A stretch of DNA of 35,191 nucleotides from an uncultured Bacteroidales bacterium (GTDB lineage: Bacteria > Bacteroidota > Bacteroidia > Bacteroidales > Paludibacteraceae). The notes beneath the pieces are model-generated. The model saw only the letters and a list, made by a program, of their open reading frames with translations, was not told where the DNA came from and ran no database searches. Location: NCBI GenBank assembly GCA_902798385.1, contig CADBWK010000016.1, positions 1-35,191 on the forward strand. The letters are read 5' to 3'. Made by a program: the position numbers and the translations under genes. Positions 4,568-27,641 of the stretch are shown piece after piece; position 1 is the first letter of the stretch; every line of letters begins with the position of its first letter.

Positions 4568-5438
4568 CCGTGAAATAGGCCTCGAAGTCCTCGCCGGTCC
4601 ATGTGAACTTATAGATGACATTATTGCCCATGAAACCGTCGTGGCTGACGATGGCGGTGTAGTAGGTATGATTGACTTCGAAGGGTATACTCGTTCCGCT
4701 ACCGTCGTTCTTGACCACCGTGACGCCATAGTGAATGGACGACTCGTCATGGATTTCGGAGATGGTGATGAAGAGGTCATTGAAATAGTCTTCGGGCGAG
4801 ATGCCTCCCCATATGTCTGTGAGCGTGGCGCTATCGACGGTGGAGGCGAGGTAGGGCAGTTTGCTGTTGATCTTATTGTCCGGATCAAGCGGATATATGT
4901 AATCCCATATGCCGCGCACGCGGTAATCGAAATGCACGTCCATGATACTCTCGGCGGTGGTCTTCACGGTTTCGATGAACAGTTTTCCGACGGGTTGACT
5001 CTTCTCCGGATCGACCACGAAGGCAAATATCCAGTAATCCGTATTGGGCTTGAGGTTGGTGAAGAACTTGTCTATCTTACCATACTGCAGGCAGTGGCTC
5101 GCGAAAGGCGCGATATTGAACTCGCCATCTTTGAGCAGGTTATACCGCCATTGGATGTACTCGGTATATGCGGAGTCCAGCGCGAGGGTCATGAACTGCT
5201 TCTGGTTGTCCATGGGGTTGACACCTTTCCTCGCGGGCTCGCAGGCTACGAAGTAATACGCGTCCTTGTCGGGCGAGAAAGCGCACTCAACAAAACCCGC
5301 CGAGACGGTATAGGGCGAGATCTGAATCGATACGTCCTTGGTTGTCCAACTGGCGTCGGGGTCGCAGGAAGCGAGCATTATTATGGATAATAATGCAATT
5401 GGAAATTTGAAATTTGAAATTGGAAATTTCTTACTCAT
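4530..5438 (-). CDS. Lipoprotein with a fibronectin-III-like segment, function unknown
   Basis: 302 residues. The leader MSKKFPISNFKFPIALLSI ends in the lipobox MLASC, followed by DPD. Acidic residues just after the Cys are typical of surface-exported Bacteroidota lipoproteins. The phrase FFTNLKPNTDYWIFAFVVD (around residues 128-146) resembles the end of an Fn3-type beta sandwich. No catalytic motif is recognised. The N-terminal part of the signal peptide is made of a word repeat plus a hairpin (5375-5430). The gene overlaps the upstream hydrolase by 8 bp and rlmH by 38 bp, so it is in the middle of an operon. It may be a partner of the neighbouring lipoprotein hydrolase. Confidence 0.8.
   Translation of the reverse strand: MSKKFPISNFKFPIALLSIIMLASCDPDASWTTKDVSIQISPYTVSAGFVECAFSPDKDAYYFVACEPARKGVNPMDNQKQFMTLALDSAYTEYIQWRYNLLKDGEFNIAPFASHCLQYGKIDKFFTNLKPNTDYWIFAFVVDPEKSQPVGKLFIETVKTTAESIMDVHFDYRVRGIWDYIYPLDPDNKINSKLPYLASTVDSATLTDIWGGISPEDYFNDLFITISEIHDESSIHYGVTVVKNDGSGTSIPFEVNHTYYTAIVSHDGFMGNNVIYKFTWTGEDFEAYFTDEDNIAIFREDE
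5375..5430 (-). repeat. Word array plus inverted repeat in a lipoprotein leader (site A)
   Basis: Perfect 10-bp arms at 5375-5384 (GCATTATTAT) and 5387-5396 with a 2-base loop. They are immediately followed, toward higher coordinates, by four AT-rich units of the aatttgaaattt type (5397-5430). On the coding strand the order is words then hairpin, and together they encode most of the signal peptide (ISNFKFPIALLSIIM). Confidence 0.85.
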
Positions 5439-6777
5439 ATTGCTTCCTTTCTTCCTCTTCTTTCTTGAGGAGTTCTTGAACGGCCCCGATAAAGCGGAGA
5501 CAGGTCATGACATGTCCGCCGTAGTGGCCGAAGTTATAGGTGATGTTGGCATTGGTCCATCGCGCTTTGGCGTTCGAGGCGTTCTGGAAAGAGACCGTCT
5601 CGTCATCCATGGAGTGGGCGATATATACGGAGGCTTCCGGCGTCCAAGAGAACGAGACGATCGAGTTCGCCACCATCGCTTTCTGGAGTTCAGACACCTC
5701 CCACGAGGTCTGGTCCAAGGCTTTGGGCGTGAGCAGCTCATGGGTGACATGGGTGCCGATGAGTTTGTTGACCTGCCCGGTGGTGTATTTCTTGGAGTTG
5801 ATCCAATCGTCGAGGTGAACATATATCCACTCTTGCATCAGATCGCGCATGTCCATCTGCAGTTTGTTTCCGATGATCATGCCTTGTACGACGAGCGGAA
5901 CACCGACGGGGTAGCTGGCGAGGTCGGTGTTGACAAACTGCTCATAGGTGGCTTTCACGTCATACGGACCACCTCCGGCAAAGACACGGTGAATTTTTAC
6001 CTGCTTCGGGTTCTCGTCTGCGTAATATTCGGTCTCGATGAGGTGCTCAACCGCCATCGTGTTCGCGCCGCCCTGGCTATATCCCATGAGGATGAGTTCA
6101 TCGTGCTCGGGTTCCATGCCGACCGCTTTGAGCCAGGGTTTGACAGCGAGGTACATATCAAGTACGTTCCGCGCCGTGAGGTCCATGACGAGGTAGGGGT
6201 GCACCTGATTGGCTGTGATACCGTATCCCATATAATCGGGGATGATCAGGCCGTATCCTTGCTTGACGAGGATGCCTTCGAGCGAGAAGCAGTTAGAGGG
6301 GGCTTCGGAGTTGGAGCAGACGGTATAGTGACTGACGAGGATCATTCGCTTGGGTCGCTGTCCACGGGGAAGCATGACCTTACCGGAAAGGATGACCGTG
6401 TCCCAGTTCAGATCGATGGTAGGGTAGGTACCTACTATCTCGGTCACTTTATTCTGATTGCCGTACTTAAGCAGTTCCTGCACAATCGCGGCGCCGGTGA
6501 CGCTGCTGGTCTTGCGGATAGCCGGTCCGTTGGCCGGATCGGATGATTCGTACTCTTCCGTCCACTCGTTCACCGGGATACCATCCGGCAGGTAACAGTT
6601 GCTCGGCAGACCTTGCTCGAGGTCGGTCTCGTGTTGCCCGATCACCTTAAAAGCCAAGCCCTTCGCCGCTTCGATGTTCGCGAAGTCCACAAACTCATCC
6701 TGACGGAAGTGGCAGGAGGTGAGCACTATTGACAATAGTGCTATTTGATATTTTATATTTGATATTTGAAATTTCAT
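5431..6777 (-). CDS. Lipoprotein alpha/beta hydrolase (secretory-lipase-like)
   Basis: 448 residues, MKFQISNIKYQIALLSIVLTSC giving a lipoprotein signal peptide. The fold is recognisable: a strand MILVSHYTV, GLIIPDYMGYG, and the nucleophile elbow LILMGYSQGGANT with Ser near residue 238. A likely acid (HSMDDETV) and a C-terminal His (FGHYGGHV) follow. It resembles secretory lipases and esterases that act on acyl substrates outside the cytoplasm; the substrate is not predictable. It is the second gene of the block 7434-4097, starting directly at the stop of the outer-membrane protein gene. The leader is built from an AT-rich word array followed by a palindrome. Confidence 0.82.
   Translation of the reverse strand: MKFQISNIKYQIALLSIVLTSCHFRQDEFVDFANIEAAKGLAFKVIGQHETDLEQGLPSNCYLPDGIPVNEWTEEYESSDPANGPAIRKTSSVTGAAIVQELLKYGNQNKVTEIVGTYPTIDLNWDTVILSGKVMLPRGQRPKRMILVSHYTVCSNSEAPSNCFSLEGILVKQGYGLIIPDYMGYGITANQVHPYLVMDLTARNVLDMYLAVKPWLKAVGMEPEHDELILMGYSQGGANTMAVEHLIETEYYADENPKQVKIHRVFAGGGPYDVKATYEQFVNTDLASYPVGVPLVVQGMIIGNKLQMDMRDLMQEWIYVHLDDWINSKKYTTGQVNKLIGTHVTHELLTPKALDQTSWEVSELQKAMVANSIVSFSWTPEASVYIAHSMDDETVSFQNASNAKARWTNANITYNFGHYGGHVMTCLRFIGAVQELLKKEEEERKQYE
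6722..6777 (-). repeat. Word array plus inverted repeat in a lipoprotein leader (site B)
   Basis: Arms AGCACTATTG (6722-6731) and CAATAGTGCT (6733-6742) pair perfectly around one base. AT-rich words of the atatttgatatttg type fill 6743-6777, up to and including the start codon. It has the same arrangement and orientation as site A. Compared codon by codon, the arms differ from site A by paired changes. Confidence 0.85.
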
Positions 6778-7434
6778 TTAAAAACGTGCACCTATGCTGA
6801 CATTGATTATTCGTGAGGAAGCCATGAAGATATAGTTGGAATTCTTGAGGGCATATAAGCCACCGAACTCCACGGTGGCGAACCAGCGGTCGTAGTTGGC
6901 ACTGACTCCGAAGACGGTGATGTTCACCGCTGCTCCGACATCCGTGTGCCATCCCTTGGCGTTCGTCTCCGTTCCGCCGTTGATATCCATACCGAAACCG
7001 AGTCCGGAAAAGAGATTGACGTACTCATGGTGGTAGTACGTGAAGCGGACGGTCGGCATGATCACAAGGTTGTAGAAATGTTCCCCGCTTTGGCGTGCGA
7101 GCTCTTGTCCCTTGCCGTTGCGGGTCACGTTGTCCCAGCTGACACCACTACCGTCGAACAAACCACCCAAGGAGAACCAGTGATTGAAGCGCCATTGGTA
7201 CTCGATCCATAGATGTTGGTAGTACTTGAAGTTCTCGCGATAGACCTGCTCGTAGGAGGCGGGCATCGTATTGACGACATAGTTCTGCTTATGCCACATC
7301 AAGGTCTCGAAGAGCTGGTCTCCCCAGCCGATACGGATCTCGTTCCGGCGATCGAGGTACGCCATTTTGTCCTCTGCCAAAGCGGTTGTCGTTAACCCGC
7401 AAAGGAGGATGAGTATGTAAAATTGCATTTTCAC
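6778..7434 (-). CDS. Probable outer-membrane beta-barrel protein
   Basis: 218 residues with signal peptide MKMQFYILILLCGLTTTALA. The mature part alternates aromatic and polar residues in short amphipathic strands (IRIGWGDQLFETL, HLWIEYQWRFNHWFSLGGLFD, LVIMPTVRFTYYHHEYVNLFSGLGFG, ITVFGVSANYDRWFATVEFGGLY). It ends in a terminal strand closing with Phe (IINVSIGARF), as outer-membrane barrels do. No specific family or ligand is recognised. It is the first gene after the promoter at 7439-7470 and heads the operon that ends with rlmH. Confidence 0.7.
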   Translation of the reverse strand: MKMQFYILILLCGLTTTALAEDKMAYLDRRNEIRIGWGDQLFETLMWHKQNYVVNTMPASYEQVYRENFKYYQHLWIEYQWRFNHWFSLGGLFDGSGVSWDNVTRNGKGQELARQSGEHFYNLVIMPTVRFTYYHHEYVNLFSGLGFGMDINGGTETNAKGWHTDVGAAVNITVFGVSANYDRWFATVEFGGLYALKNSNYIFMASSRIINVSIGARF

Positions 7435-7438
7435 GCTG

Positions 7439-7470
7439 CAAAATTAGTGAAAAATTTGCACATATGCAAA
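7439..7470 (-). promoter_or_regulatory. Promoter of the outer-membrane protein operon
   Basis: Minus strand TTTG (7470-7467), a 20-bp spacer, TAATTTTG (7446-7439). The start codon is 5 bp further on, so the transcript would be almost leaderless. Confidence 0.75.
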
Positions 7471-7486
7471 AAAAAGTGTAATTTTG
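7455..7486 (+). promoter_or_regulatory. nadC: nadC promoter
   Basis: TTTG at 7455-7458, a 20-bp spacer, TAATTTTG at 7479-7486. It interlocks with the minus-strand promoter in exactly the geometry seen at 1399-1446; the shared core is TTTGCACATATGCAAA. Confidence 0.85.
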
Positions 7487-7506
7487 CACCGCAAAATCGT
7501 TAATTT

Positions 7507-8376: not shown

Positions 8377-8558
8377 GCTTCGTCCACTAACATCTGACAG
8401 TTTTTGCAGTCGAAGGTAAGGCGAAGGACCTTACCGGTACGCAGACGCAAGTAACGCGGTTCCTTATCTTTCGGATAGGGAGCCGTTTTTCTACAATGCC
8501 CGAGTTCAAAGAGCAGGCAGTAGCGGCAAATCATCAGATGATCGTATTGCGTCTCCAT
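8373..8558 (-). CDS. Small Cys-rich protein, probable detached C-terminus of the U32 protein
   Basis: 61 residues, METQYDHLMICRYCLLFELG then HC and ending FDCKNCQM. It has four or five Cys in a CxxC...C...CxxC arrangement, suggesting a zinc or iron-sulfur site. From memory of the family, Bacteroidales U32 proteins end in such a segment (LMxCxxC...LGxC...LRLEFDCKNCQM) within a single chain. Here it is in a different frame, overlapping the last 25 bases of the U32 gene. It is either a frameshifted, internally deleted tail or a small protein made by coupled reinitiation. Its reading frame is intact, which argues for retained function. Confidence 0.6.
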   Translation of the reverse strand: METQYDHLMICRYCLLFELGHCRKTAPYPKDKEPRYLRLRTGKVLRLTFDCKNCQMLVDEA

Positions 8559-10048
8559 TCGTTGAGGATGCTAATGGGTATAAAATAGGGCTTGGTGTCC
8601 AACGTGATTTTGCGGGCAATATAGGGTGTGTCGCCGAGTTTGGCTAACTGCGTCCGAATGGTCTCGAGGGCTTTGTCGGTATTCTTAGCCGGCTCGTGCG
8701 GATAAACAAAAGAACGCTCTTTATCTCCGATACGCAGTTCAAAGCCCTCTTCGGTCTCGCGGAAGACGATATCCACGGGAATACGTCGTTCGCTCTTTAG
8801 ATTCTTGGCGAATTCGACGTCGAGATTTCGGTATAGTCGTTTAAGGTTTAGCGAATTAGCGTTTAGGGGCTTGTTGATCTTGATGAGGTTGCTTTCGATA
8901 CCGTTGACCGAGAAGCCTTCGCTGCCGATGGTGAGACCGTCGCCGTTATGGAGAACGATGCCGTCGTTGAGGCGCACACGGAGGGTGTTACCGTGCGCTT
9001 CGATCACTTCGCCCACGTACTCACCGGTCGATTTGGGTGTGTCCCAATTGGCCATAGGACGTGTGCGACCATGGAGGAAATAATCGGTGGCTCCGCGGTG
9101 GAAGGTCTTGGAAGGATCGGGTACAAAAGTTCTTTTGTACACAGCCCCATTGGATATTGGATATTTGATATTGGATATTTGATTTAATTTCTCGCGGTAG
9201 TACGCCACGATATTGGTCACGTAGTCGGCATCTTTGAGTCGGCCTTCGATCTTGAAGGTAGTCACACCGGCATCGATGAGTTCGTTCAGATACGCCGAGC
9301 GGTCGAGGTCTTGGAGGGAGAGTACATGCCGCTGGTGAATCGGTTGACCGGCCTCGTCGAGCACTTCATTCATCGACTCGTCCAACACATCGTAGGCCAT
9401 GCGGCAGAACTGTGCACACGCCCCGCGGTTGGCAGAGCGGTTGGCAAGCACTTCGGATATATAACAGCGGCCGGAATACGAAACGCACAAAGCCCCATGC
9501 ACAAAGGCTTCGAGTTCGATATCGGGTACGGCTTCATGGATCGCACGTATCTCGTTGATGCTGAGTTCGCGTGCCAGGACGACCCGTTTGAAACCCATGT
9601 CGCGCAGGTGTGCCACCTGTTCGGGAGTGCGGTTGTCGCATTGCGTGGAAGCATGCAGACGGATAGGGGGAAGGTCGAAGTCAAGCAGGTGCAGATCCTG
9701 AATGATAAGGGCGTCGACACCTATTTTATATAACGCGTGCGCGAGTGCGAGCGCGTGCGGGTACTCATCGTCATGGAGTAGGGTGTTGAGCGTGACAAGC
9801 ACCTGAACACCGTAGGTATGGGCATAGCGAACCACCTCCGCTAAGTCCTCCAGCGAGTTGCCGGCAGCCTGTCGCGCACCGTAAGCAGGTGGCCCGATAT
9901 AGATAGCATCGGCGCCGGCCTGGATGGCAGCGATCGCTACTTCTTTGTCGCGAGCCGGAGCGAGGAGGCTAAGCGGTACATCACGATGCCTGCCGTAACC
10001 GACACGTTCATCGAGTGCTTCGTTCCGTATTGGGGTATCTCTATGCAT
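8534..10048 (-). CDS. U32-family protein (RlhA/TrhP-like RNA hydroxylation factor), C-terminally shortened
   Basis: 504 residues. The barrel starts at LLAPARDKEVAIAAIQAGAD and IYIGPPAYGARQ. The U32 signature EAFVHGALCVSYSGRCYIS lies near residues 176-195, followed by NRGACAQFCR; these four Cys fit an Fe-S site known for this family. U32 members of the RlhA/TrhP group hydroxylate rRNA or tRNA bases. The only in-frame ATG (10048) gives a 112-bp overlap with the upstream methyltransferase gene, which is unusual. A word array encodes NQISNIKYPISN near residues 287-299, where relatives have an unrelated linker. The frame ends at WRRNTII, before the usual Cys-rich tail, which continues in another frame (8558-8373). 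Confidence 0.85.
   Translation of the reverse strand: MHRDTPIRNEALDERVGYGRHRDVPLSLLAPARDKEVAIAAIQAGADAIYIGPPAYGARQAAGNSLEDLAEVVRYAHTYGVQVLVTLNTLLHDDEYPHALALAHALYKIGVDALIIQDLHLLDFDLPPIRLHASTQCDNRTPEQVAHLRDMGFKRVVLARELSINEIRAIHEAVPDIELEAFVHGALCVSYSGRCYISEVLANRSANRGACAQFCRMAYDVLDESMNEVLDEAGQPIHQRHVLSLQDLDRSAYLNELIDAGVTTFKIEGRLKDADYVTNIVAYYREKLNQISNIKYPISNGAVYKRTFVPDPSKTFHRGATDYFLHGRTRPMANWDTPKSTGEYVGEVIEAHGNTLRVRLNDGIVLHNGDGLTIGSEGFSVNGIESNLIKINKPLNANSLNLKRLYRNLDVEFAKNLKSERRIPVDIVFRETEEGFELRIGDKERSFVYPHEPAKNTDKALETIRTQLAKLGDTPYIARKITLDTKPYFIPISILNEWRRNTII
9121..9187 (-). repeat. Word array plus inverted repeat inside the U32 gene (site C)
   Basis: Arms GTACAAAAG (9121-9129) and CTTTTGTAC (9132-9140) pair perfectly with a 2-base loop. 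After 8 bases come four units of the attggatatttgat type (9149-9187). On the coding strand the array comes first and the hairpin second, in frame, as at sites A and B. Confidence 0.85.
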
Positions 10049-10482
10049 TGACTGCAGTTATCTACTACTGATTGTTGAACACCGAAGACTTCGTGTCCCA
10101 AAATCACAGCGATTTTAGGACCCACCTTCTCCGCGATTTCTTCGAGGGTGACGGAGTCATGTGCCTGCTCGACGGCATAGACGGTATAACCCTGTGCCTG
10201 CAGGTCATGCACGGCATCGAGTGTGTCCTTGTAATATTGCCATTCGACTGATTCTTCGGCGCCGAGTGCGGTCTTGTGGATCTCCTGATTCGGCGGGCAA
10301 CAACAGATACCGCATAGCACCACTTTCTCTATGCGCATGGCGTCGGCGGTGCGAAAGACCGCACCTACGTTATGCTGACTGCGCACATTATCGAGCACCA
10401 CGACCAGCGGCAGTTTGTCGGCTGCGCGGTATTGGTCGACATTCATGCGACCCATTTCGGCGGAAGTCAGTTTGGTACTCAT
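9937..10482 (-). CDS. TrmH/SpoU-family RNA 2'-O-methyltransferase
   Basis: 181 residues. It is a SPOUT (trefoil-knot) methyltransferase, with motif 1 VLDNVRSQHNVGAVFRTADA, motif 2 IAVILGHEVFGV and motif 3 CIEIPQYGTKHSMNVSVTAGIVMY. These are the SAM-binding and catalytic signatures of TrmH-type enzymes, which methylate ribose 2'-OH in tRNA or rRNA. The target nucleotide cannot be told from the sequence. The start codon overlaps the stop of the RimM-like gene (ATGA), and the 3' end overlaps the U32 gene. It therefore sits in a run of RNA and ribosome maturation genes. Confidence 0.92.
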   Translation of the reverse strand: MSTKLTSAEMGRMNVDQYRAADKLPLVVVLDNVRSQHNVGAVFRTADAMRIEKVVLCGICCCPPNQEIHKTALGAEESVEWQYYKDTLDAVHDLQAQGYTVYAVEQAHDSVTLEEIAEKVGPKIAVILGHEVFGVQQSVVDNCSQCIEIPQYGTKHSMNVSVTAGIVMYRLASSLRLATKK

Positions 10483-11841: not shown

Positions 11842-13034
11842 ACTTCAGGATTTAAAATGTTTCTGTCTTTGTATATCTGGAAATAGAGTTCCGTTTTCTG
11901 ATCTTGTTCGGTGTCGGTAAAGATGGTTCCGATGGCTTGCTTGGTCTCCACCTTATCGCCTTGCTTGACACTCAGTTTGCTGAGGTTGGAATAGACCGTG
12001 CGGTAGTTACCGTGTTGGATGATTACGGCGTACGTACCGGCCACCATGAAGCAACTAGTCACCTCGCCTTTATACACCGCACGCGCTTTGGCATTGGCGA
12101 CCGTCTGCAGGTAGATGCCTTTGTTGTCCGTCACCACTTGCGAATAGACAGGGTGTTGTTGCTTACCGAAATGTCCGCTGATCATACCTTTCTCCACCGG
12201 CCAGGGCAACCGTCCTTTGTTGGCCTCGAATCCACCGGCAATCAGTTGTTGCTCTTTGGTGAGCGAGGTCTTGGATGCTTTCTCGGTCTGCTTGCGCACC
12301 ATATCATCGATCTTGCGGTTCAGTTCATCCACTTTCTTCTGTTTCTGCTTGAGTTGCTTGCTCAGGTCTTTCTCTTTGGACTTGAGTTGATTGAGCATGT
12401 TCTGCTGCTTGCGCTCGTCGCGTTTGAGATTCTCCTGTTCCCGCTTACGCGAAGAAAGGGCAGTCTGTTTGTCGGCTTTGTTGGCCTGCAACAACTCATT
12501 CTGTATATCGATCTCCGCCTGGGTGTTCTCAATACGACGCACCTGTTGTTGACGGAAATGCGCGAACTCCTGCAGATACCGTGCGCGGCGGGCGAGTTGC
12601 TGAAAACTGTCGCTGCTCAAGAGGAATAACAAGGGTGACTGCTGCATGCGGGCATAATGGCTTTGACGCACCATCTGGGCGTAGTCGTTTTTATAGCCCT
12701 CCAACACGATCTGCAACGAGTCCCGTTTGTTATTCAACACGTTCATCTCGCGGTTGAGTGCCGTGATCTCGTTGTCCAGCGTGCGAATGAGCTGTTTCTG
12801 ATTCTTGATGTTCTGACCGATCAGATTCAACTTATTGAGCGTTGCCGTCTCGTCTTTCTTCGTCTGCTTGAGCATCTTGTTGGTCTGCTCTATCTCCTGC
12901 TGTAGTTTCTTCTGCTTCTTCTGCAGGTCCTTCACGCTCTCGCCAAAGGCAGGGAGACAGAGGAGCATGGCTATAAGGAAGACAAGCAGTCTTTCTCCTT
13001 TCACCTTTAATCTTTCACCTTTCATCTTTATCAT
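11826..13034 (-). CDS. envC: EnvC-like murein hydrolase activator (degenerate LytM)
   Basis: 402 residues from the ATG at 13034, which overlaps the preceding stop (ATGA); an ATG six bases upstream is also possible. After a signal peptide (LLVFLIAMLLCLPAFGE), two long coiled-coil stretches span about residues 25-250. A C-terminal LytM/M23 domain follows (GHFGKQQHP..., HGNYRTVYSNLS). The zinc ligands are lost: the HxxxD position reads NKGIYLQ, and the HLHFE position reads TELYFQIY. This is the EnvC/NlpD pattern, in which the domain activates amidases and does not cut murein itself. The leader begins with a KGERLKVKGERL word array. The dut-TPR-DUF4292-EnvC order is common in Bacteroidales. Confidence 0.9.
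   Translation of the reverse strand: MIKMKGERLKVKGERLLVFLIAMLLCLPAFGESVKDLQKKQKKLQQEIEQTNKMLKQTKKDETATLNKLNLIGQNIKNQKQLIRTLDNEITALNREMNVLNNKRDSLQIVLEGYKNDYAQMVRQSHYARMQQSPLLFLLSSDSFQQLARRARYLQEFAHFRQQQVRRIENTQAEIDIQNELLQANKADKQTALSSRKREQENLKRDERKQQNMLNQLKSKEKDLSKQLKQKQKKVDELNRKIDDMVRKQTEKASKTSLTKEQQLIAGGFEANKGRLPWPVEKGMISGHFGKQQHPVYSQVVTDNKGIYLQTVANAKARAVYKGEVTSCFMVAGTYAVIIQHGNYRTVYSNLSKLSVKQGDKVETKQAIGTIFTDTEQDQKTELYFQIYKDRNILNPEVWIAK
12976..13030 (-). repeat. GGTGAAAG word array plus hairpin in the EnvC leader (site E)
   Basis: Words of the type tttcacctttaat (12995-13030) encode KMKGERLKVKGER. The 3' side on the coding strand has an 8-bp stem at 12976-12983/12989-12996, with one G.T pair and a 5-base loop. 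It uses a different vocabulary from sites A-D but has the same array-then-hairpin order. Confidence 0.65.
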
Positions 13035-13588: not shown

Positions 13589-14438
13589 GATGTGATTTTA
13601 TTACTTCTTTATTGGCCTCATTGGTCGCGTTCCACAGCGCTTTGTTGAGGTAGAACTTCGCCAAATCGTCCTGTCCTTTAAGGTACATGATCCAACCGTA
13701 GGTGTCCAAAAACGTCGCGTTGTTCGGTTCTTCGCGGATGGTGATGGCACTCATCTGCTCGGCTTTCGTCAAGTCCCCGCCGTGGGTCGCCAGATGGTAG
13801 GCGTAGTTATTGAGCACCATCGTGTTGTACGGGTCGAGCTCCAAGGCGCGTTCGTACAAGGCGTAGAGTGTCTTTTTCTTGCCCTTGGTCAGTTCTGTCA
13901 ACTCAATTCGGAAGAGCAGGAATCGCAGATCATTGGGATCTGTCTCCAAGTAGCGATCTACTTCCTTGATGGCTTTCTTGGGCAGGTTGGCCATCGCGTA
14001 GATCCGGTACCGGGTGATGGCGCTGTAGCCGTCGTAGCCGTTAATCTTATCGATGGCATCCTGCATCTTGATCGCCTTGCCCCATTGCTTCTCGTGGATG
14101 TAGATGACCTTCAGCCTTTCCGGCAGCTCTTCCGACATCTTGCCTTTGGGCGCTAACTTATACGCCCGCTCGTAACAGTCTTTGGCTTCCTGGTCGTGCT
14201 TAAGCGCCTCGTGCATGGCTCCTAAGTAAAAGAGCGTCTGCACATCATTCGGCTTTAACTCATCGCAGAACTGAAGCAACACGTACGCTTCCGGATACCG
14301 CTCGTTCGAGATAGCCTCTTTCGCCGCGTACCAGTAGTACGTGAACTGCTGTTCCTGCTCCACGGTGACCGCTTGCATCTTCGGAACAAAGAGCAAGGAG
14401 CAAAGAACAAAGATGAATATGTAACGCAGTTTATTCAT
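13572..14438 (-). CDS. Secreted tetratricopeptide-repeat protein
   Basis: 288 residues. MNKLRYIFIFVLCSLLFVPKMQA is a signal peptide, partly made of a repeated ctttgttctttg-type word (14383-14412). Several TPR units follow: AYVLLQFCDELKPNDVQTLFYLGAMHEAL, AKDCYERAYKLAPKG, AIKEVDRYLETDPNDLRFLLFRIELT, LYALYERALELDPYNTMVLNNYAYHLA, FLDTYGWIMYLKGQDDLAKFYLNKAL. TPRs are protein-protein docking surfaces; the partner is unknown but is presumably in the periplasm, perhaps linked to its operon mates. The start directly follows the dut stop. Confidence 0.87.
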   Translation of the reverse strand: MNKLRYIFIFVLCSLLFVPKMQAVTVEQEQQFTYYWYAAKEAISNERYPEAYVLLQFCDELKPNDVQTLFYLGAMHEALKHDQEAKDCYERAYKLAPKGKMSEELPERLKVIYIHEKQWGKAIKMQDAIDKINGYDGYSAITRYRIYAMANLPKKAIKEVDRYLETDPNDLRFLLFRIELTELTKGKKKTLYALYERALELDPYNTMVLNNYAYHLATHGGDLTKAEQMSAITIREEPNNATFLDTYGWIMYLKGQDDLAKFYLNKALWNATNEANKEVIKSHLEAIK

Positions 14439-14876: not shown

Positions 14877-15794
14877 TTAGAATCTCTTTTCAACGAGCAC
14901 TCTCAACCCGTCGGCAACGATTTTGATATGTATATCTTTCTCCATCTCCACGGGGTCTCCGTCGATATGGAAAGGCGCCGGCTCTTCGCGCTCGAGCGTC
15001 ACTTCCTTCGCGCGGATCGTATTCATGAAATGACTGTCATCGATGCTTCCTGCAAACAGACGCAACGCCAGACTGGCGCTACCCAACAGCGCGTTGCTCG
15101 ACATCATCATGATATCCATCTTACCATCCTGCAGACTCGCTTTGGGCGCAATCATCGCCTCGTAGCCCCATTGGTTGGCATTGGCGAAGGTGATCAAGAA
15201 GGCTTTGTGCGTCACATCCAGCCCATCGCCGATCAGGTGGTAGGTCTGCGGGTGATACGAGAACACGTCCTTGATGATGTTCTGGAAATAGGTTGCAAAC
15301 CCGCGTTTGTTGCTGCCTGCAAAATGATCGGCTATCACGGCATCAAAACCCGTGCCACATGTGCTGACGAACATCTTTCCGTTTGCCAGACCGTAGTCCA
15401 CGGAAATAGGTTCGCTGCGGTTGATCATCTCCAGCGCCTTCTGCGGCTTGATCGGGATATTGAGGTGACGTGCAAAACCGTTACCGCTACCCATAGGGAT
15501 GATACCGAGTGCGGTCTGACGGCTGATAGCTGACGGCTGACAGCCTTTAACCAAGCCACGTGCTACTTCATTCACCGTGCCATCACCGCCGACAGCTACT
15601 ACGGCGTCAAAGCCCATTCGGGCAAACTGGTAGGCCATCTCCGTGGCATGGCCGGCATGCTCCGTGAATACGATGTTCGGCAACCACTGCTCCGCATCCA
15701 GCGTCTGCATGATTAGTTTCGGCAACTTACGCTTTGCGTTCTGCGTCTCCTTACTTCCCGATACCGGGTTGATGATAAAAGCTATATTTTTCAT
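14877..15794 (-). CDS. Diacylglycerol-kinase-family lipid kinase
   Basis: 305 residues from MKNIAFIINPVSGSKE (15794). The nucleotide loop VVAVGGDGTVNEVARGL and the LGIIPMGSGNGFAR motif define the DAGK catalytic domain. The C-terminal beta sandwich ends FHIDGDPVEMEKDIHIKI. It phosphorylates a lipid such as diacylglycerol or a sphingoid base at the membrane; the exact substrate is not evident. Between the two motifs, CQPSAISRQ is encoded by a gctgatagctgacg word array that looks inserted, since relatives join these motifs by a shorter loop. It is the first gene after the promoter at 15826-15857 and heads the operon that runs to 8373. Confidence 0.92.
   Translation of the reverse strand: MKNIAFIINPVSGSKETQNAKRKLPKLIMQTLDAEQWLPNIVFTEHAGHATEMAYQFARMGFDAVVAVGGDGTVNEVARGLVKGCQPSAISRQTALGIIPMGSGNGFARHLNIPIKPQKALEMINRSEPISVDYGLANGKMFVSTCGTGFDAVIADHFAGSNKRGFATYFQNIIKDVFSYHPQTYHLIGDGLDVTHKAFLITFANANQWGYEAMIAPKASLQDGKMDIMMMSSNALLGSASLALRLFAGSIDDSHFMNTIRAKEVTLEREEPAPFHIDGDPVEMEKDIHIKIVADGLRVLVEKRF
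15516..15545 (-). repeat. CTGAtAGCTGACGG word array inside the lipid kinase gene
   Basis: Three to four copies of a ctga(c/t)(g/a)g-type unit in frame, encoding QPSAISRQ between two catalytic motifs. No strong flanking hairpin was found, unlike at sites A-E. Confidence 0.75.
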
Positions 15795-20392: not shown

Positions 20393-20815
20393 ATGAGAAA
20401 GATTTTAATCTTTGCCTTTGCGGCAGTTATGTTTGCAGCGTGCACAACCCCCGATAGGAAAATGACAAATGACCAATTACAAATGACAAATGATTTAATC
20501 GTTCGTATTGCGGAGATTGAGGTGAATGAGGGATATTTGGAGGAATATCTCGCGGCGGCACATAATGTGGGTACGAAGTCTGTGGAGAGTGAGCCGGGCG
20601 TGATCTGTATCTTCCCGATGCAGGTCAAGGACTCGCCGAACACGATTCGCATTTTGGAGATTTACCGTAATGACGAAGCGTATCAGGCACATTTGCAGAC
20701 TCCACATTTCCTCGAGTACAAACAAGGCACGCTGCATATGGTTAAGTCGCTTCAACTCGTAGCAACGGAACCGCTGGCACCGGAAACCATGCCGCTGATT
20801 TTCAAGAAGTATTAA
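20393..20815 (+). CDS. Lipoprotein with ABM (antibiotic biosynthesis monooxygenase) domain
   Basis: 140 residues. MRKILIFAFAAVMFAAC is a lipoprotein signal. It is followed by a word-array linker (DRKMTNDQLQMTND) and then a ferredoxin-like ABM domain: LIVRIAEIEVNEGYLEEYLAAAHNVGTKSVESEPGVICIF, then TIRILEIYRNDEAYQAHLQTPHFLEYKQG. Proteins such as YgiN with this fold act as quinol monooxygenases or bind quinones without a cofactor. The H/F residues of HLQTPHFLEY are the usual signature. Such proteins are normally cytoplasmic; here the lipoprotein leader places it in the envelope. Confidence 0.88.
   Translation: MRKILIFAFAAVMFAACTTPDRKMTNDQLQMTNDLIVRIAEIEVNEGYLEEYLAAAHNVGTKSVESEPGVICIFPMQVKDSPNTIRILEIYRNDEAYQAHLQTPHFLEYKQGTLHMVKSLQLVATEPLAPETMPLIFKKY
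20459..20493 (+). repeat. AAATGAC word array in the ABM lipoprotein linker
   Basis: Words aaaatgacaaatgacc, aattacaaatgac and aaatgattt in frame encode KMTNDQLQMTNDL between the lipobox and the folded domain. No good hairpin follows. Confidence 0.75.
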
Positions 20816-23132: not shown

Positions 23133-23170
23133 CTTTTCTGCGAAAATGGTAGATATTTAGCTAATTTATG

Positions 23171-23202
23171 TTTGCGTATCTCAAAAAAAAGCAGTAACTT
23201 TG
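23171..23202 (+). promoter_or_regulatory. Promoter of the CMD-cupin/hydrolase operon
   Basis: TTTG at 23171-23174 within TTTGCGTATCTC, a 20-bp spacer, TAACTTTG at 23195-23202; the start codon is 24 bp on. Confidence 0.88.
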
Positions 23203-23226
23203 CAGCAAATTTTCAAATGATACAAT

Positions 23227-24321
23227 ATGAAAATGAGAAAATGTAAAAATATTTTATTCTTTATGCTGGCGGCGCTTACTTTTGCGGCTTGCAACAACAC
23301 AAATGAGAAAATGAGTAAATGTGAAAATGAGAAAACGGAGCTCAGTTTTACGGCTGAGCAAGCGGCGTGGATGAGTGTTATCGCTTGCGATGAGGCCAAG
23401 GGAGATCTCGTGTCATTGGAATCGGCTATTCATAGCGGATTAAAGGCTGAATTGACGGTTAGTCAGATTAAGGAAGCACTCTCGCAGCTGTATGCTTATA
23501 CGGGTTTTCCGAGAAGCCTGAATGCGTTGGGCGTGTTGCAGCGCGTCATAGGCGACCGTCAGGCGAAAGGGGTAAAGGCTATTATGGGGGAGGATGCAAG
23601 TCCGCTTGGCGAGAATTACGATGCACTTAAAGAAGGTACGCGCGTGCAGACGCAGTTGGTGGGCAAGGCTTTCGAGTATGAGTTTGCGCCGGCGACGGAT
23701 TATTACCTGAAGGCGCATTTGTTCGGAGATATTTTTGCCCGCGATAACTTGACGTACGCCGACCGTGAGTTGGTGACCGTTTCTGTCTTGAGCGGTCTAG
23801 AAGGCGTAGAGCCGCAATTGAAAGCGCACATCGCCGGTGCACGCAATATGGGTGTGACCGAAGAACAACTGCAAGGTATTGTAGTAGCTCTCGCGGCAAA
23901 TGGTCTTCTGGCGGAAGCCGGACGCTTGGCAGGCCTGCTCCAAACAGAGTGGCCGCAAGGCAAATCGAATGATGCTTATGCGCAGTATTTCACGGGGCAA
24001 AGTTATCTGCAACCGTATTTCGGCGGTGTGGCAAATGTGACGTTCGAACCGCGTTGCCGCAATAACTGGCATGTTCACCACGGAGCGGTACAAGTGCTAA
24101 TCTGCGTGAGCGGCAAAGGTTGGTATCAGGAGTGGGGTAAACCTGCAGTTCCCCTTACTCCGGGAACGGTGATTGCTATTCCGGAAGGCGTCAAACACTG
24201 GCATGGAGCAGCGGCGGACTCGTGGATGCAGCACTTGGCAATTCATACCCAAGAGCAACCGGGTGCCACGAACGAATGGCTCGAACCGGTTAGCGATGAA
24301 CAATATAATTCCGTACAATAA
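23227..24321 (+). CDS. Lipoprotein: carboxymuconolactone decarboxylase-like domains plus cupin
   Basis: 364 residues. MKMRKCKNILFFMLAALTFAAC is a lipoprotein signal, followed by NNTNEKMSKCENEKT. The first CMD-like domain (about 40-120) contains LVSLESAIHSGLKAELTVSQIKEALSQLYAYTGFPRSLNAL. The second (about 150-240) contains DRELVTVSVLSGLEGVEPQLKAHIAGARNMGVTEEQL. A cupin closes the protein (WHVHHGAVQVLICVSGKGWYQEWG, PEGVKHWHGAA), with the His-rich metal site intact. AhpD/CMD domains act in thiol peroxidase or muconolactone chemistry; neither domain shows a clear CxxC, so redox activity is uncertain. Its stop codon overlaps the next start (TAATG). Confidence 0.92.
   Translation: MKMRKCKNILFFMLAALTFAACNNTNEKMSKCENEKTELSFTAEQAAWMSVIACDEAKGDLVSLESAIHSGLKAELTVSQIKEALSQLYAYTGFPRSLNALGVLQRVIGDRQAKGVKAIMGEDASPLGENYDALKEGTRVQTQLVGKAFEYEFAPATDYYLKAHLFGDIFARDNLTYADRELVTVSVLSGLEGVEPQLKAHIAGARNMGVTEEQLQGIVVALAANGLLAEAGRLAGLLQTEWPQGKSNDAYAQYFTGQSYLQPYFGGVANVTFEPRCRNNWHVHHGAVQVLICVSGKGWYQEWGKPAVPLTPGTVIAIPEGVKHWHGAAADSWMQHLAIHTQEQPGATNEWLEPVSDEQYNSVQ
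23301..23359 (+). repeat. AAATGAGAAAATG word array plus inverted repeat
   Basis: Words aaatgagaaaatgag, taaatgtgaaaatgag occupy 23301-23335 right after the lipobox codons, and related words also start the gene (23227-23246). A 6-bp inverted repeat follows: GCTCAG 23340-23345 / CTGAGC 23354-23359. Confidence 0.65.
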
Positions 24322-25466
24322 TGAGAAAGTTTTTCACCCTTATGCTTGCAGCCCTTACCTTTGCTGCTTGCACAAATTCAAATGAAAAAATGAAGAATTG
24401 TGAAAAAGACACATGGGACAAAGTCTTCCCGTTAAGCGAGAAAGTAAACCACAAAAAGGTATCCTTCGAGACCCAGTACGGCTTTACGTTGGTTGGCGAT
24501 TTATACACGCCGAAGGCAAATGACAAATCTCAAATGTCCACGGCTCTGCCGATCGACAGAAATCACAAATACGCCGCTATCGCGGTGTCCGGTCCTTTTG
24601 GCGCAACGAAAGAGCAGAGTTCGGGTCTGTATGCGATGAAGATGGCAGAGCGCGGATTTGTTGCATTGGCTTTTGATCCTTCTTTCACCGGTGAGAGTTC
24701 GGGTGAACCGCGTCGTACGGCTTCGCCGGATATCAATACCGAGGACTTCATGGCAGCAGTCGATTTCCTGAGCAAACTGCCCGAAGTGGATGCTGATAAA
24801 ATTGGTATCATCGGCATCTGCGGATGGGGAGGTATTGCCCTCAATGCGGCGGCAGCAGATACACGCATCAAAGCGACGGTGGCTTCGACGATGTACGACA
24901 TGACGCGTGTGTCGGGCAACGATTACAACGATGCTTTCGACGACGAACAGTGGCGTCATCGCAATCGTGAGAACCTCTCCCAACAGCGTCTCACTGACCC
25001 GCAAGCCATGGCTGGCGGTGTGTTAGATACCGTTCCTCCACAGGCTCCCCGTTTTGTGCACGACTACTACGATTACTACAAGACTCCGCGCGGCTACCAT
25101 GCACGTAGCGGTAACTCGAATGACGGTTGGCGTGTCATCGGCACGCAGGCTTATGCCAATAGCCGTTTCCCGTATTACATCAACGAGATCCGTTCTGCTG
25201 TTCTGATCATGCATGGCGCGGACGCTCACAGCCGTTATTTCGGCGAAGCAGCGTACCATTATATGGTGGATGGCAAGGCGGAAGGTTACAAGACCGTGGT
25301 AGCTCCTAATCCATGTCCAGAGAACAAAGAGTTGCTTATCATCCCGGACGCCTCGCATTGCGACCTCTATGACGGTGGCTATACCGAACCGGCAGGCAAA
25401 GGCGAGCCTAAAAACCTCATCCCGTGGGACAAATTAGCCGAGTTCTTTGAGAAAAATCTAAAGTAA
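24321..25466 (+). CDS. Lipoprotein dienelactone-hydrolase-like alpha/beta hydrolase
   Basis: 381 residues. MRKFFTLMLAALTFAAC is a lipoprotein signal nearly identical to that of the preceding gene, followed by TNSNEKMKNCEKD. The hydrolase core has YAAIAVSGPFGATKEQSSGLYA, VALAFDPSFTGESSGEPR, DINTEDFMAAVDFLSKLPEVDADKIGIIGICGWGGIAL with the G-x-C-x-G elbow. The Cys nucleophile is the dienelactone-hydrolase type. ADAHSRYF and IPDASHCDLYD supply the acid and His. Such proteins are annotated as hydrolases of unknown substrate and often sit with CMD proteins, as here. An in-frame word array (24517-24536) lies between the first strand and YAAIAVSG. Confidence 0.9.
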   Translation: MRKFFTLMLAALTFAACTNSNEKMKNCEKDTWDKVFPLSEKVNHKKVSFETQYGFTLVGDLYTPKANDKSQMSTALPIDRNHKYAAIAVSGPFGATKEQSSGLYAMKMAERGFVALAFDPSFTGESSGEPRRTASPDINTEDFMAAVDFLSKLPEVDADKIGIIGICGWGGIALNAAAADTRIKATVASTMYDMTRVSGNDYNDAFDDEQWRHRNRENLSQQRLTDPQAMAGGVLDTVPPQAPRFVHDYYDYYKTPRGYHARSGNSNDGWRVIGTQAYANSRFPYYINEIRSAVLIMHGADAHSRYFGEAAYHYMVDGKAEGYKTVVAPNPCPENKELLIIPDASHCDLYDGGYTEPAGKGEPKNLIPWDKLAEFFEKNLK

Positions 25467-25484
25467 AAAGTCTCAATGGTGAGG

Positions 25485-27641
25485 TTATAGTTTCGCCTGA
25501 ATGCTCACTTTTGCCCAAGCGCCGGGTTGGAGGATTCCGCCGTAGTCGTAATAGCGCGTATGGGTGATATTTGTACATTCGGCAGCGACACGCAGGTAGC
25601 GGTTCTGCCAATAGATAGAACCATCCAACAGCCATACGGGCTGATAGTCCTGCACAGCCCCTTCGGCATTGTTGAACTGACCTTCTCGTTTCTGAAAGCG
25701 CACCGTCCATGAAGCGCCAAAACCTTTGTAGATACCATGCTCCAGACGGATAGACAGTTTATGACTCAGGTAATCGAGATAGCGTGAACCCGTCTCTTTG
25801 AGGTCCAAGTTCAGATAGGTGTATGCGTAATCGACCGCCACACAACGCAGCCATTCGTTAAGCCGGTATGCGATAGAAAGTTCTATACCCGTAGCATCCA
25901 CACGTTGCTGATTCTGTGCGTGATACGGTCGTTTCGTATCTTCCGGCACATACACCCAATCGATGATGTCTCTTCCCCATCGGTAGTACCAATCGGCGGA
26001 CAAAGTGAGCATGCCTTTGTCCGATTTGTCATTTGAGATTTGAGATTTGAGATTTCCTAATTTCCATTCTCCTTTGTAACCGACTGAGAGGAGCCATGCT
26101 TTTTCGGGATTGAGGTTGCGGTTACCCAGTTGGTTTCCGGCGTTGTAATAGAGATCGGTGAACGTGGGCATGCGCAGCGAGCGGTTGGCATTCAGATAAA
26201 CGGTTCCACCTTTTTTGAAGTCATAGCCGATGTTTGCTCCTCCACCCAGATGGTGTCCGAATTGGGAGTTGTATGTGCCGTTGATGCCGATGGAAGCGGC
26301 TAAACCTGCATAATAGAAGCTTTGTTCGGCATAGTAGTTCGTATGGAAACGATTACCTCCTTTGACCAGATCCAATACGCGAACTTGGGATAGCGGAAAA
26401 CCTTCTGCATTCGGTACTTGTCCGTTTGGATTGATGGTGTCACCAAGGTTCGTAGAGTGCATGTTTTCATTACGGATACTGATTCCGAAGGATGTGGTTC
26501 CCACACGCGAAGCATAATGGGCAGCCAGCGTGGCGGAAGCGGTCTGCGCGAAGTGGAAATTGCCGTATAACCGTTGCCCGCGATGCCATTCGTAGCGGTC
26601 GTAGTTAGCGCGATAAGCCGCTTGAGCGTCTAAGCGCCATGCCCCCCAGCGATGTGCGTACTTGGCGGACGCAAAAGCGGTACGCGTGGCGTCAAACTGG
26701 TCTTGCGACCCAAAACCATAACCCATTCCCAACCCCGCATCTTTCCATTGCGCACCGGCCTGAACGTCAAGTCCTCTCCATCGTGTCTGGAAATAGAGGT
26801 TCACCAGTTGAAAATCCGAGTTACGGCATGCAAGGGCTTCTTTCTCCGTGGGTCGGGGCGCCAGATAGCCTTCTGCTCGCGAGTAATCCGCTGCTATATT
26901 GAATTGCGCCTCTTTGCGTGCCACGGACGCCGCCACCTGCGGATGAACCAAACCGTTCATGCCCCCGTCCAGACGTAAAATAGTTTGCGCTTCGTTGTTT
27001 GAAACAGTTTGTTTCGTGACGATATTGATTGCTCCGGAGAAGGCTCCGTGCAGATGTGCCGAGGTGCCTTGCAACACTTCGATGCGCTCAATCATCGCAG
27101 GCGTAATCGGTACGTTCAGCGCATAGTGCCCGGTGTGGAAATCGCTCATACTCACGCCGTTAAGCAGCACAAGGACTTGGTCGAACGTACCGCCGCGCAT
27201 ACTGATGTCGGCTTGGGAACCGTTGGCACCGCGTGTACGCACATCCACCCCAGGCAGGTATTGCAGAATATCCGCCACAGTCTGTATCGGCAACGCCTCT
27301 ATCTCGGCGTGCGACACCTGTGTGACAAGACGGAAGGCTTCCGAATGAACTTCAGCTTTCTGAGAAACGACCAACACCTCCTGAAGACTAAGTTGCCGGT
27401 CGGTTAAGGGGATGGAATCCGCCGTTCCCGATGAACCTTCCGCCATTACCGGTACGCAGAACAAGCCGCTGAGAGCAGCCACAGCCACACTCTTGCCATG
27501 CTTGAGCATCTCCAGATCGGTCATATAACCCGCCACATGTCCGATGGTCACCTCGCGGTGAAGTGAACGGAAAGCGGCGTACGCCTTGTGGCAGAACCGA
27601 CGGAAACGGATTCCTGTTTTGAATGAATAATTTTTGAACAT
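25485..27641 (-). CDS. TonB-dependent outer-membrane receptor (BtuB/CirA-like)
   Basis: 718 residues from MFKNYSFKTGIRFRRFCHKA (27641). A signal peptide follows a long n-region, as is common in Bacteroidales receptors. The plug domain is clear: LSLQEVLVVSQKAEVHSE (TonB-box-like), IQTVADILQYLPGVDVRTRGANGSQADISMRGGTFDQVLVLLNGV, MIERIEVLQGTSAHLHGAFSGAINIVTK. A beta barrel of about 500 residues follows, ending ILQPGAWAKVSIQAKL. It imports a large ligand such as a cobamide or siderophore using TonB energy. No partner transporter genes are next to it. An in-frame word array with a long inverted repeat interrupts the barrel near residues 525-550. Confidence 0.93.
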   Translation of the reverse strand: MFKNYSFKTGIRFRRFCHKAYAAFRSLHREVTIGHVAGYMTDLEMLKHGKSVAVAALSGLFCVPVMAEGSSGTADSIPLTDRQLSLQEVLVVSQKAEVHSEAFRLVTQVSHAEIEALPIQTVADILQYLPGVDVRTRGANGSQADISMRGGTFDQVLVLLNGVSMSDFHTGHYALNVPITPAMIERIEVLQGTSAHLHGAFSGAINIVTKQTVSNNEAQTILRLDGGMNGLVHPQVAASVARKEAQFNIAADYSRAEGYLAPRPTEKEALACRNSDFQLVNLYFQTRWRGLDVQAGAQWKDAGLGMGYGFGSQDQFDATRTAFASAKYAHRWGAWRLDAQAAYRANYDRYEWHRGQRLYGNFHFAQTASATLAAHYASRVGTTSFGISIRNENMHSTNLGDTINPNGQVPNAEGFPLSQVRVLDLVKGGNRFHTNYYAEQSFYYAGLAASIGINGTYNSQFGHHLGGGANIGYDFKKGGTVYLNANRSLRMPTFTDLYYNAGNQLGNRNLNPEKAWLLSVGYKGEWKLGNLKSQISNDKSDKGMLTLSADWYYRWGRDIIDWVYVPEDTKRPYHAQNQQRVDATGIELSIAYRLNEWLRCVAVDYAYTYLNLDLKETGSRYLDYLSHKLSIRLEHGIYKGFGASWTVRFQKREGQFNNAEGAVQDYQPVWLLDGSIYWQNRYLRVAAECTNITHTRYYDYGGILQPGAWAKVSIQAKL
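25991..26064 (-). repeat. Word array plus long inverted repeat inside the TonB receptor (site D)
   Basis: AATCGG-CGGACAAAG (25991-26005) pairs with CTTTGTCCGATT (26015-26026), leaving a 3-base bulge and a 9-base loop. Units of atttgag follow to 26064. The array encodes NLKSQISNDKSDKG in a surface or turn segment of the barrel. On the coding strand the array precedes the hairpin. Confidence 0.8.

Follow-up and report, generated by a model that had tools for sequence, protein, structure and literature searches.

The palindromic elements of Rickettsia are sequence families of about 100–150 bp, REPs are families of extragenic sequences that come with a Y1 transposase, and the small dispersed repeats of cyanobacteria, which are reportedly very small, dispersed and linked to heptameric STRR, are also sequence families. 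Heptameric simple-sequence repeats have been described in bacteria (Mrazek et al. 2007, as cited in PMC4692102 and PMC4679880), and a heptamer excess is in itself already known. In the cited passages, these repeats have a period of 7 and exceed chance, slippage is proposed as their origin, the 7-nt step is noted without an explanation, and the cases named mostly concern one intergenic word per genome (GGGAATC in Xanthomonas, TAACTGA in Beggiatoaceae). It is also known that template switching creates and repairs hairpins (PMC8794818). Quasipalindrome template-switch mutation (PMC8794818, PMC7202029), which creates perfect arms and paired changes in a single step, resembles the case described below in such arms and changes, but heptamer arrays and in-frame linker turnover form no part of the account in the passages cited.

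The 35,191-nt stretch of DNA analyzed here (the window) carries heptamer arrays that agree with the cited repeats in period and excess, but differ from them in several ways. A single preferred word per genome was not found, since 91 arrays in this genome had 63 consensus words (the commonest occurring 8 times), 58 of the 91 lay in open reading frames, and some were accompanied by hairpins. No paper on this in-gene, multi-word, hairpin-linked form was found in the literature. Like the Rickettsia palindromic elements, the arrays are inserted in frame at permissive points in genes and have a palindromic character; unlike them, they are short (some 28–40 nt), have unrelated words and hairpins, and do not form one alignable family. 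A shared family sequence of the kind that defines the cyanobacterial repeats was likewise not found among them. A dispersed hairpin combined with a short repeat recalls the REP/REPIN elements mobilized by RAYT transposases (PMC3116915), whereas the palindrome sequence here is not conserved between loci and no match to the Y1 transposase (PF01797) was obtained in this genome, the assembly of which is 74% complete. Repeats made by reverse transcriptases (retron, DGR, DRT) differ in the same way, as no reverse transcriptase gene (PF00078) was matched in this assembly.

In the window, stretches of 24 positions that matched in 20 or more places under one constant shift numbered five at shift 7, two at shift 8 and three at shift 14, with none at the other shifts from 4 to 15. 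These counts and TRF gave a period of 7, not the 8–11 bp of a preliminary description of this DNA, and the encoded peptide also has a period of 7, because 21 nt correspond to 7 aa. The five in-gene arrays of that description are real, and all lie in open frames of the minus strand. The AAATTTC/AATTTCC array at 5397–5429 encodes KFPISNFKFPI in the first part of a lipoprotein signal peptide, and 3′ of it on the coding strand is a hairpin with 10-bp arms and a 2-nt loop (5375–5396), located in the signal-peptide segment ALLSIIMLA. The AAATATC array at 6742–6774 encodes KFQISNIKYQI, which belongs to the signal peptide of a lipoprotein resembling secretory lipases (PF03583), and is followed 3′ by the hairpin AGCACTATTG..CAATAGTGCT (6722–6742, minus strand) with 10-bp arms and a 1-nt loop, which was scored 9 since the minimum loop was set to 2. 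In the linker of a U32 peptidase, the AATATCC array at 9149–9183 encodes ISNIKYPISN, and the hairpin GTACAAAAG AA CTTTTGTAC (9121–9140, minus strand), with 9-bp arms, lies 8 nt 3′ of it. The AAATCTC array at 26023–26055 encodes NLKSQISNDKS, part of the barrel of a TonB-dependent receptor; the stem reported beside it (25991–26026, minus strand) has perfect 9-bp arms at 25997–26023 and reaches 12 bp once a 3-nt bulge is included. At the N-terminus of an M23 peptidase, the AAAGGTG array at 12990–13030 encodes MKGERLKVKGER. The supposed 8-bp stem at 12976–12996 (minus strand) exists, but is imperfect (7 of 8 pairs), one of its arms falling within the final word of the array, and it scores below 8. 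Three heptamer arrays without a strong hairpin had been overlooked: TTTGTTC/TTTGCTC (14383–14410, minus strand) in the signal peptide of a TPR protein; CCGTCAG (15516–15544, minus strand), which encodes CQPSAISRQ and adds 8 aa in frame to a DAGK-like kinase; and AAATGAC (20460–20493, plus strand), which encodes MTNDQLQMTND shortly past a cysteine that we take to be a lipoprotein-like motif. A strong hairpin was therefore present at four of the eight heptamer arrays in the window (TRF score 40), and an imperfect one at a fifth. Arrays with 8- or 16-nt units were located at 1304–1340, 23215–23250 and 23301–23335, and a hairpin without an array at 10095–10121 (minus strand) in a SpoU methylase gene. 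No Rfam family matched within the window at the gathering score.

TRF analysis of 435 kb of this genome detected the 91 arrays with a period of 7 or a multiple of it, period 7 accounting for 72 of 220 rows. Three Markov-3 shuffles of the genome yielded 7, 14 and 9 rows, none of them with period 7 and one to three with period 14. Tandem 7-nt units thus exceed chance, as in heptameric simple-sequence repeats elsewhere, and these shuffles, together with the hairpin controls given below, rule out chance or low complexity as the source of the arrays. Coding DNA is not their particular home, as had been thought, because the 58 in-gene arrays compare with 83 at random positions.

Hairpins were defined by a stem score of at least 9, and their positions were counted 3′ of the G-poor strand of the array; arrays in which neither strand was richer in G were excluded from the orientation counts and tallied separately, identical array contexts were counted once, and terminator-like hairpins at gene ends or A/T runs (C3a 26504, C4 31647, L265, L267) were retained. 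The comparison with chance that the preliminary description had proposed came out in its favor: 13 of the 91 arrays had a hairpin within 45 nt, against 0.39 expected for random positions, and none of 100 control sets reached that number. At 0–15 nt, hairpin density was 0.674 versus a background of 0.017 per 100 nt in this genome (9 hairpins, 89 arrays; approximately 40-fold), 0.433 versus 0.018 in 60 other stretches of the genus (10 hairpins, about half of them probably one SpoU site across species, 154 arrays; 24-fold), and 0.274 versus 0.019 in a replicate declared in advance (3 hairpins, 73 arrays; 14-fold). More than 30 nt from arrays, the density was near background. The claim that each array ends in a hairpin did not hold, since at most approximately 7–13% had one within 15 nt, and the hairpin-free majority counts against a model based on hairpins. 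Hairpin sequences differed from locus to locus, with no fixed hairpin. Many vocabularies share a single architecture, and in this the earlier view is supported. The pooled hairpins lay 3′ in 22 cases and 5′ in 7, but the pre-declared replicate gave 3 versus 2, so that the side preference was not independently replicated. The preference for the G-poor strand relative to GC skew was moderate here (60/89) and weak in the other genus stretches (89/154). The G-poor strand was the coding strand in 27 of 63 in-gene arrays; this independence from gene strand rules out an orientation imposed at the mRNA level.

Relatives were then compared at the same codons. The array carriers form a group that comes from the rumen and gut. 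Two stretches, of 422 and 552 bases, were left out. In the DAGK-like kinase, 8 of 19 relatives had an insertion at one exact point and 11 did not, in agreement with the claim that arrays leave the frame intact; the words at this site were AAAGGTG, AATGGCG, GTTCACG, GGTTACG and CCGTCAG in different species. All of the arrays compared were in frame at tolerant sites, and close relatives held unrelated words, or none, at the same codons. The U32 linker type varied between species (5 of 74 loci were unparsed and left out), with L119 carrying GTACAAACG CT CGTTTGTAC as the counterpart of the window hairpin. Among eight relatives found for the 5397–5429 site, inspection by eye revealed another repeat type in L081 and TTATTCC/TTGTTCC heptamers in L082 and L084, the others being without a clear array. 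At the M23 site, AAAGGTG words also occurred in L081 and L090 among the 20 relatives listed, and several more had other repeats; those of L090 contain stops in the M23 frame and are thus probably upstream of the start. Presence and absence in close relatives, another comparison proposed earlier, were seen directly: in L131/L133 and L109/L168 (loci with 90.9–94.8% raw identity), one member had an array where the other had array-free codons, the open frame being the same, and L131/L133 also paired two different arrays of equal length. Unit number changed between close pairs as well, with gains of 49 nt (7×7) away from any long frame, of 22 nt at the U32 end and of 21 nt, in frame, in SpoU. Tolerant in-gene array sites therefore turn over fast.

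Each of five genomes compared had its own preferred words. The expectation that words recur within a genome was confirmed, as identical-word pairs within genomes numbered 102, against 52.0 for shuffled labels (the largest of 2000 being 77), and arrays less than 5 kb apart had words more alike (permutation p 0.006). Arrays shorter than 28 nt were excluded from the identical-word and unit-order tests. Unit order was not shared between loci in excess in this genome; in genome G044, 65 pairs shared unit order at k=18, and the largest of 60 shuffles gave 58. Wide sharing of this genome's commonest word was rejected, because AATCTCCAATCTCCAATCTC was matched (with up to one mismatch) in just 3 of 197 other Bacteroidales genomes. 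That each genome has words of its own suggests that arrays are also copied from one another.

The reading that we favor, with a confidence that stops just short of an even chance, is that replication slippage and template switching, some of it at hairpins, make the arrays, which frame selection and recombination then sort and swap. The strongest competitor, that these are ordinary heptameric repeats arising by local polymerase slippage under frame selection with hairpins as occasional neighbors, is unlikely in our judgment. It accounts for the unit gains between close pairs and for the absence of hairpins at most arrays, and the heptamer excess known in many bacteria is ascribed in the cited passages to slippage on a polymerase-sized stretch (PMC4692102, PMC4679880). 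However, the words at the DAGK site vary widely from one species to another and, on visual inspection, are very different from the sequence of array-free relatives, the net insertions there are of 8, 9 or 17 codons, which are not multiples of 7 nt, and neither genome-specific words nor the hairpin excess is expected from it.

A very small mobile element that some enzyme mobilizes in trans, with a hairpin and an array as its ends in the manner of the Rickettsia or cyanobacterial elements, is distinctly improbable. The exact-point in-frame insertions with array-free relatives, the adjacent hairpins and the shared words would suit it, but conserved sequence and a fixed hairpin are lacking, and hairpins also occur without arrays. 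Neither a Y1 transposase nor a reverse transcriptase, both of which were considered as the engine, was found in this genome or in G004, G011, G014 and G017 (96–98% complete); PF00078 was matched in 5 of 25 genus genomes. Since hairpins occur array-free, unit order is not copied here and these enzymes were not found in this genome, the view of the arrays as one transposable element is not supported; of the earlier phrase, an element that “spreads, or forms”, the second verb fits better. With nearly even confidence, we regard the arrays as products of replication errors and not as an enzyme-driven element. Loss of mismatch repair was ruled out as the cause, MutS1 being above the cut-off in 24 of the 25 genus genomes (the exception is 54% complete). 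SbcD was present in 5 of the 25; 13 arrays were counted in 314 kb of these five, against 38 in 388 kb of eight distant genomes without it. These counts are consistent with a role of SbcD loss, but the values overlap and kinship confounds the comparison. That some members of the genus have lost the SbcCD hairpin nuclease may predispose them to arrays, but this is no more than a lead.

The SpoU site bears on two further explanations. The window allele has the hairpin without an array, as do L090 and L129, whereas a number of relatives have a heptamer array directly before the hairpin. The search gave no match in 33 of 98 stretches, in many cases because the gene or the motif lies outside the stretch. 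Among 19 sequences, 10.0 of 12 stem pairs were formed, against 8.6 after codon shuffling, which ignores relatedness (0/5000). In the PK class, 9.57 pairs were formed without an array (7 sequences) and 10.25 with one (12 sequences); stems are nearly as good array-free, so that in this class the stem tracks peptide class as much as array. An automatic table listed hairpins in 9 of 18 array alleles and 7 of 27 others, a tree-based test of array against hairpin had just 3 supported pairs, and by hand count 11 of 51 distinct alleles (30, 31, 34 and 42–47 residues) fell outside three classes, one of the 11 with a stem of at least 9. By the codon shuffle, with relatedness uncontrolled, the arms change together here, and they do likewise at the 6722–6742 stem, which is retained in L081 with both arms altered (GTGCTATTG..CAATAGCAC). 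Cassette exchange, in which homologous recombination through the flanks swaps linkers between species and old arrays merely circulate, is very unlikely: the same linker types recur at dispersed points of the tree (37 or more changes between 9 classes roughly defined by regex, in 68 rows) and other parts of these genes differ between close pairs in short, clustered blocks, but period 7, the hairpin excess, genome-specific words and close-pair unit gains would be left unexplained. A selected function of array and hairpin in mRNA or DNA (pausing, Rho loading, delayed signal-peptide folding) is hardly credible, because, despite the hairpin after the G-poor strand and the paired codon changes in the SpoU stem, orientation does not follow gene strand and the arrays turn over fast, are lost and are under-represented in genes.

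Under slippage and template switching, the nascent 3′ end would stall, sometimes ahead of a hairpin in the template, and the paused end would slip approximately 7 nt back or use short homology to re-prime on a similar array at another genomic site. Such a jump, on a strand that we can only infer, would copy a few units before returning, leaving a heptamer array that, in the hairpin cases, lies just ahead of the hairpin. Strand switching may copy one hairpin arm from the other, so that the arms stay complementary. Selection would purge frameshifts and stops, and the in-gene arrays that persist would thus be those that fill signal peptides, loops and linkers without loss of frame. A word set particular to each genome would result as arrays are copied from one another, and recombination over short tracts probably exchanges array fillings among related species. 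A bolder version, which we consider rather doubtful, is a self-propagating DNA word without genes, in which arrays seed arrays by drawing in nascent strands stalled at other loci, with hairpins as favored landing points, so that each genome develops a dialect and tolerant protein segments keep being rewritten in frame.

If slippage and template switching are indeed responsible, replication errors of one preferred step size would supply new peptide sequence in bacteria, and such change would be seen at corresponding points of genes across dozens of related species. Three questions could then be put to a natural system: what sets the step at 7 nt, in what way hairpins direct the jumps of the polymerase, and whether arrays become possible once a hairpin nuclease is lost. 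These genomes also carry a warning, that their signal peptides and linkers are not alignable as ordinary homologous sequence.

All five arrays placed in the window by a preliminary description (5397-5430, 6743-6777, 9149-9187, 12995-13030 and 26029-26064) were found, and the period of 8-11 bp attributed to them was corrected by fixed-shift match counts and TRF to 7 nt. Because this nucleotide period is read in frame, the encoded peptides repeat every seven residues (ISNIKYP, KGERLKV). TRF located further heptamer arrays at 14383, 15516 and 20460. The Pfam families of the host genes comprised secretory lipase-like, U32 peptidase, M23 peptidase, TPR protein, DAGK-like kinase, ABM protein and TonB receptor; the first array-bearing lipoprotein matched no Pfam family. 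The source genome has 1.92 Mb in 44 contigs (completeness, 74%), of which the window is contig C16, and the relatives with names are Bacteroidales MAGs from the rumen and gut, many of which bear the label Paludibacteraceae and two of which are titled Candidatus Colicola. Arrays of period 8 or 16, of the CCTAGGATCCTAGGGT kind, were observed outside the ORF set used, at 1304-1340 in the window and on contigs C1 (114754, 163981), C3 (29308) and C4 (42959); one of them, C1 114754, adjoins a strong terminator-like hairpin. A 66-nt direct repeat (77%; 28494-28559 and 30284-30349), which spans the end of ORF 27771-28565, is perhaps a remnant of a duplication.

In a 435-kb sample of this genome (the window together with twenty 20-kb stretches of C1, C3 and C4), 72 of 220 TRF rows at score 40 had period 7, whereas three Markov-3 resamplings (7, 14 and 9 TRF rows in total) gave none. 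Rows of period 7, 14, 21, 28 or 35 were merged into 91 arrays, a few of which are not clean heptamers (e.g., the CAA-rich array at C4 47304). These arrays have 63 consensus words, the commonest being AATCTCC (8 arrays), and one strand is nearly devoid of G, the less frequent of the two bases G and C making up 5.1% in arrays versus 19.9% at random positions. Arrays avoid genes, although genes contain the majority of them: 58 of 91 lay wholly within an ORF of at least 100 codons, compared with 83.3 expected at random (200 draws; range, 77-89). Array density was 2.09 per 10 kb in this genome, 2.84 in genus relatives (111 in 390.5 kb; 20 syntenic stretches) and 0.35 in other Bacteroidales (18 stretches, about 313 kb, 11 arrays), where 9 of 11 had 14- or 21-nt units; the syntenic stretches have some orthologous sites in common. 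Thirteen more distant genus members ranged from 0 to 2.35 per 10 kb. In G249, a genome of another Bacteroidales family and one in which a single heptamer word abounds, a reversed control pattern, CTCTAACCTCTAACCTCTAA, had 104 matches with at most one mismatch. In the source genome, GC skew at positions 1-50000 of C1 was very strong (0.19-0.29) and almost every ORF lay on the same strand, in contrast to the remaining contig.

Identical words recurred among arrays of the source genome in 60 pairs, compared with 8.5 for letter-shuffled words (largest of 500, 19). Across 180 arrays from five genomes, within-genome identical-word pairs numbered 102 versus 52.0 with shuffled labels (largest of 2000, 77), and 72 versus 40.8 when the genome G044 was left out (72 was reached in 0 of 2000 shuffles). 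Words were more alike in arrays less than 5 kb apart (p 0.006). Exact unit order common to different arrays was not above chance in the source genome, and showed some sign in G044.

The claim that hairpins adjoin arrays above chance was upheld in the 435-kb sample, where 13 of 91 arrays had a hairpin of score ≥9 within 45 nt, compared with 0.39 expected, a count reached by none of 100 control sets. The excess was concentrated at 0-15 nt, mainly 3′ of the G-poor strand, with 9 hairpins in the source genome (0.674 versus 0.017 per 100 nt; 3 on the 5′ side) and 10 in 60 other genus stretches (0.433 versus 0.018; 2 on the 5′ side). A larger set of 1.22 Mb, in which 409 distinct arrays had period 7 or 8, gave 33 on the 3′ versus 5 on the 5′ side, many entries being one SpoU site in different species. 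In a replicate fixed beforehand, 400 kb of new stretches yielded 3 hairpins on the 3′ side (0.274 versus 0.019 per 100 nt) and 2, both rich in A and T runs, on the 5′ side; therefore adjacency replicates more weakly, and the side preference alone does not. Pooling the source genome, the 60 stretches and the replicate gave 22 to 7.

At the SpoU site, the segment between SVTLEE and AVILGHEVFGV mostly lacked arrays in its 26-29-residue forms and mostly carried them, with many words, in its 31-47-residue forms. By hand count, a hairpin of score ≥9 followed in 8 of the 12 distinct alleles with 35 residues, in 2 of 17 with 26-29 residues and in none of 11 with 32 residues; an automatic table at score ≥8 was weaker (9 of 18 array alleles versus 7 of 27 others), and a tree-based comparison had only 3 supported pairs, an insufficient number. 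In the window itself, SpoU has the hairpin and no array. In the PK class (19 of 62 distinct sequences), a mean of 10.0 of 12 stem pairs formed, versus 8.6 after a codon shuffle that exchanges codons among sequences and ignores their kinship (reached in 0 of 5000). Paired changes occurred at P3-L3, K3-V3 and I/T2-V/I1. Stem pairing was nearly equal in sequences without an array (9.57; 7 sequences) and with one (10.25; 12 sequences).

Orthologues without the array gave the exact junction in the DAGK-like kinase: the loop is short, GL[KR][DG]..TALGI, in 11 of 19 relatives, and in the other 8 it is extended by 8 to 17 residues at this very position. These insertions use at least four different words, not counting that of the window. 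For the U32 linker, 69 of 74 loci were parsed, and rough regular expressions sorted the fillings into nine classes, the class "none" included. Heptamer words included AATATCC, TTCAGCA and AATCGTC; among the other fillings were 8-mers (CATCATTC), a palindromic kind (CCCTCTCC..GGAGAGGG) and the 21-nt GACCGCTTCGCTGAAA type. Filling class changed at least 37 times on a 68-row tree, in which 18 of 65 inner branches were well supported. The palindromic filling, in frame as LTPTLSxGRGSSSLEG, recurred across many genus members (L053, L064, L065, L106, L120, L130, L144 and L157); similar LTPTLSQRER-like peptides occur in other phyla. A second dispersed unit, GACCGCTTCGCTGAAA / CTTACAGCGAAGCGGT, was observed at heptamer-array gene points in U32 (L055, L056, L066 and L067) and in SpoU (L089, L097, L112 and L126), where the copies carry their own hairpin, GACCGC..GCGGTC. 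Variants of TGGRTTCGACTAATCNTTTTAGTCC lie in different signal peptides of L082, L084, L092, L094 and L095, most being followed by TTTGTCC- or TTATTCC-like heptamers; here hairpin and array are a single piece.

Ten close pairs of relatives (raw megablast identity, 90.9-96.5% over 3.7-5.5 kb) contained 60 blocks of at least 8 clustered differences, some without repeats, and 37 blocks were flanked by 150 nt at ≥92% identity. Within one checked frame of 286 / 290 codons, L131 and L133 had VDQMVNSTWPNGKW (AAATGGT words) versus VERLVESQKSKVES (CGACTTT words), equal in length, and NAIHMTELPE (30 nt, no array) versus QAINYKLPITNHQLP (45 nt, ATTGGTG array). Other frame-checked differences were KLLEGRYTDIP versus KPLSTFDFRLSTK inside U32 (L109 and L168), 21 extra nt within SpoU (L141 and L147) and 22 extra nt at the U32 end (L131 and L158); seven units (49 nt) were gained outside long frames between L110 and L111. 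Other blocks, clustered and partly synonymous differences, probably reflect short-tract recombination.

Heptamer excess and the slippage idea have been published (PMC4692102, PMC4679880), as have hairpins made by template switching (PMC8794818), and a short-tandem-repeat survey reports bacteria on average without enrichment (PMC12699852). Among the matches listed, in a search that covered subscription literature thinly, no paper described heptamer arrays of many words that lie in genes and adjoin hairpins, and none concerned tandem repeats in Paludibacteraceae. The Y1 transposase (PF01797) and reverse transcriptase (PF00078) profiles had no match in the 74% complete source genome, nor in G004, G011, G014 and G017 (96-98% complete). 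The mismatch repair protein MutS1 exceeded the cut-off in 24 of the 25 genomes of the genus; the hairpin nuclease subunit SbcD did so in 5 of these 25, compared with 8 of 16 further genomes from the order.

We favour a mechanism in which replication slippage and template switching would generate the arrays, with hairpins serving as pause points, although this leaves two facts unexplained, namely that most arrays have no hairpin and that the step size is 7. The G-poor strand may be the nascent lagging strand, as is suggested by its agreement with GC skew in the source genome (60 of 89 arrays) and weakly indicated elsewhere (89 of 154). Slippage with template switching would account for the array position before the hairpin, the matched arms and the non-local words, as well as for the absence of an enzyme and the frame-neutral survivors.
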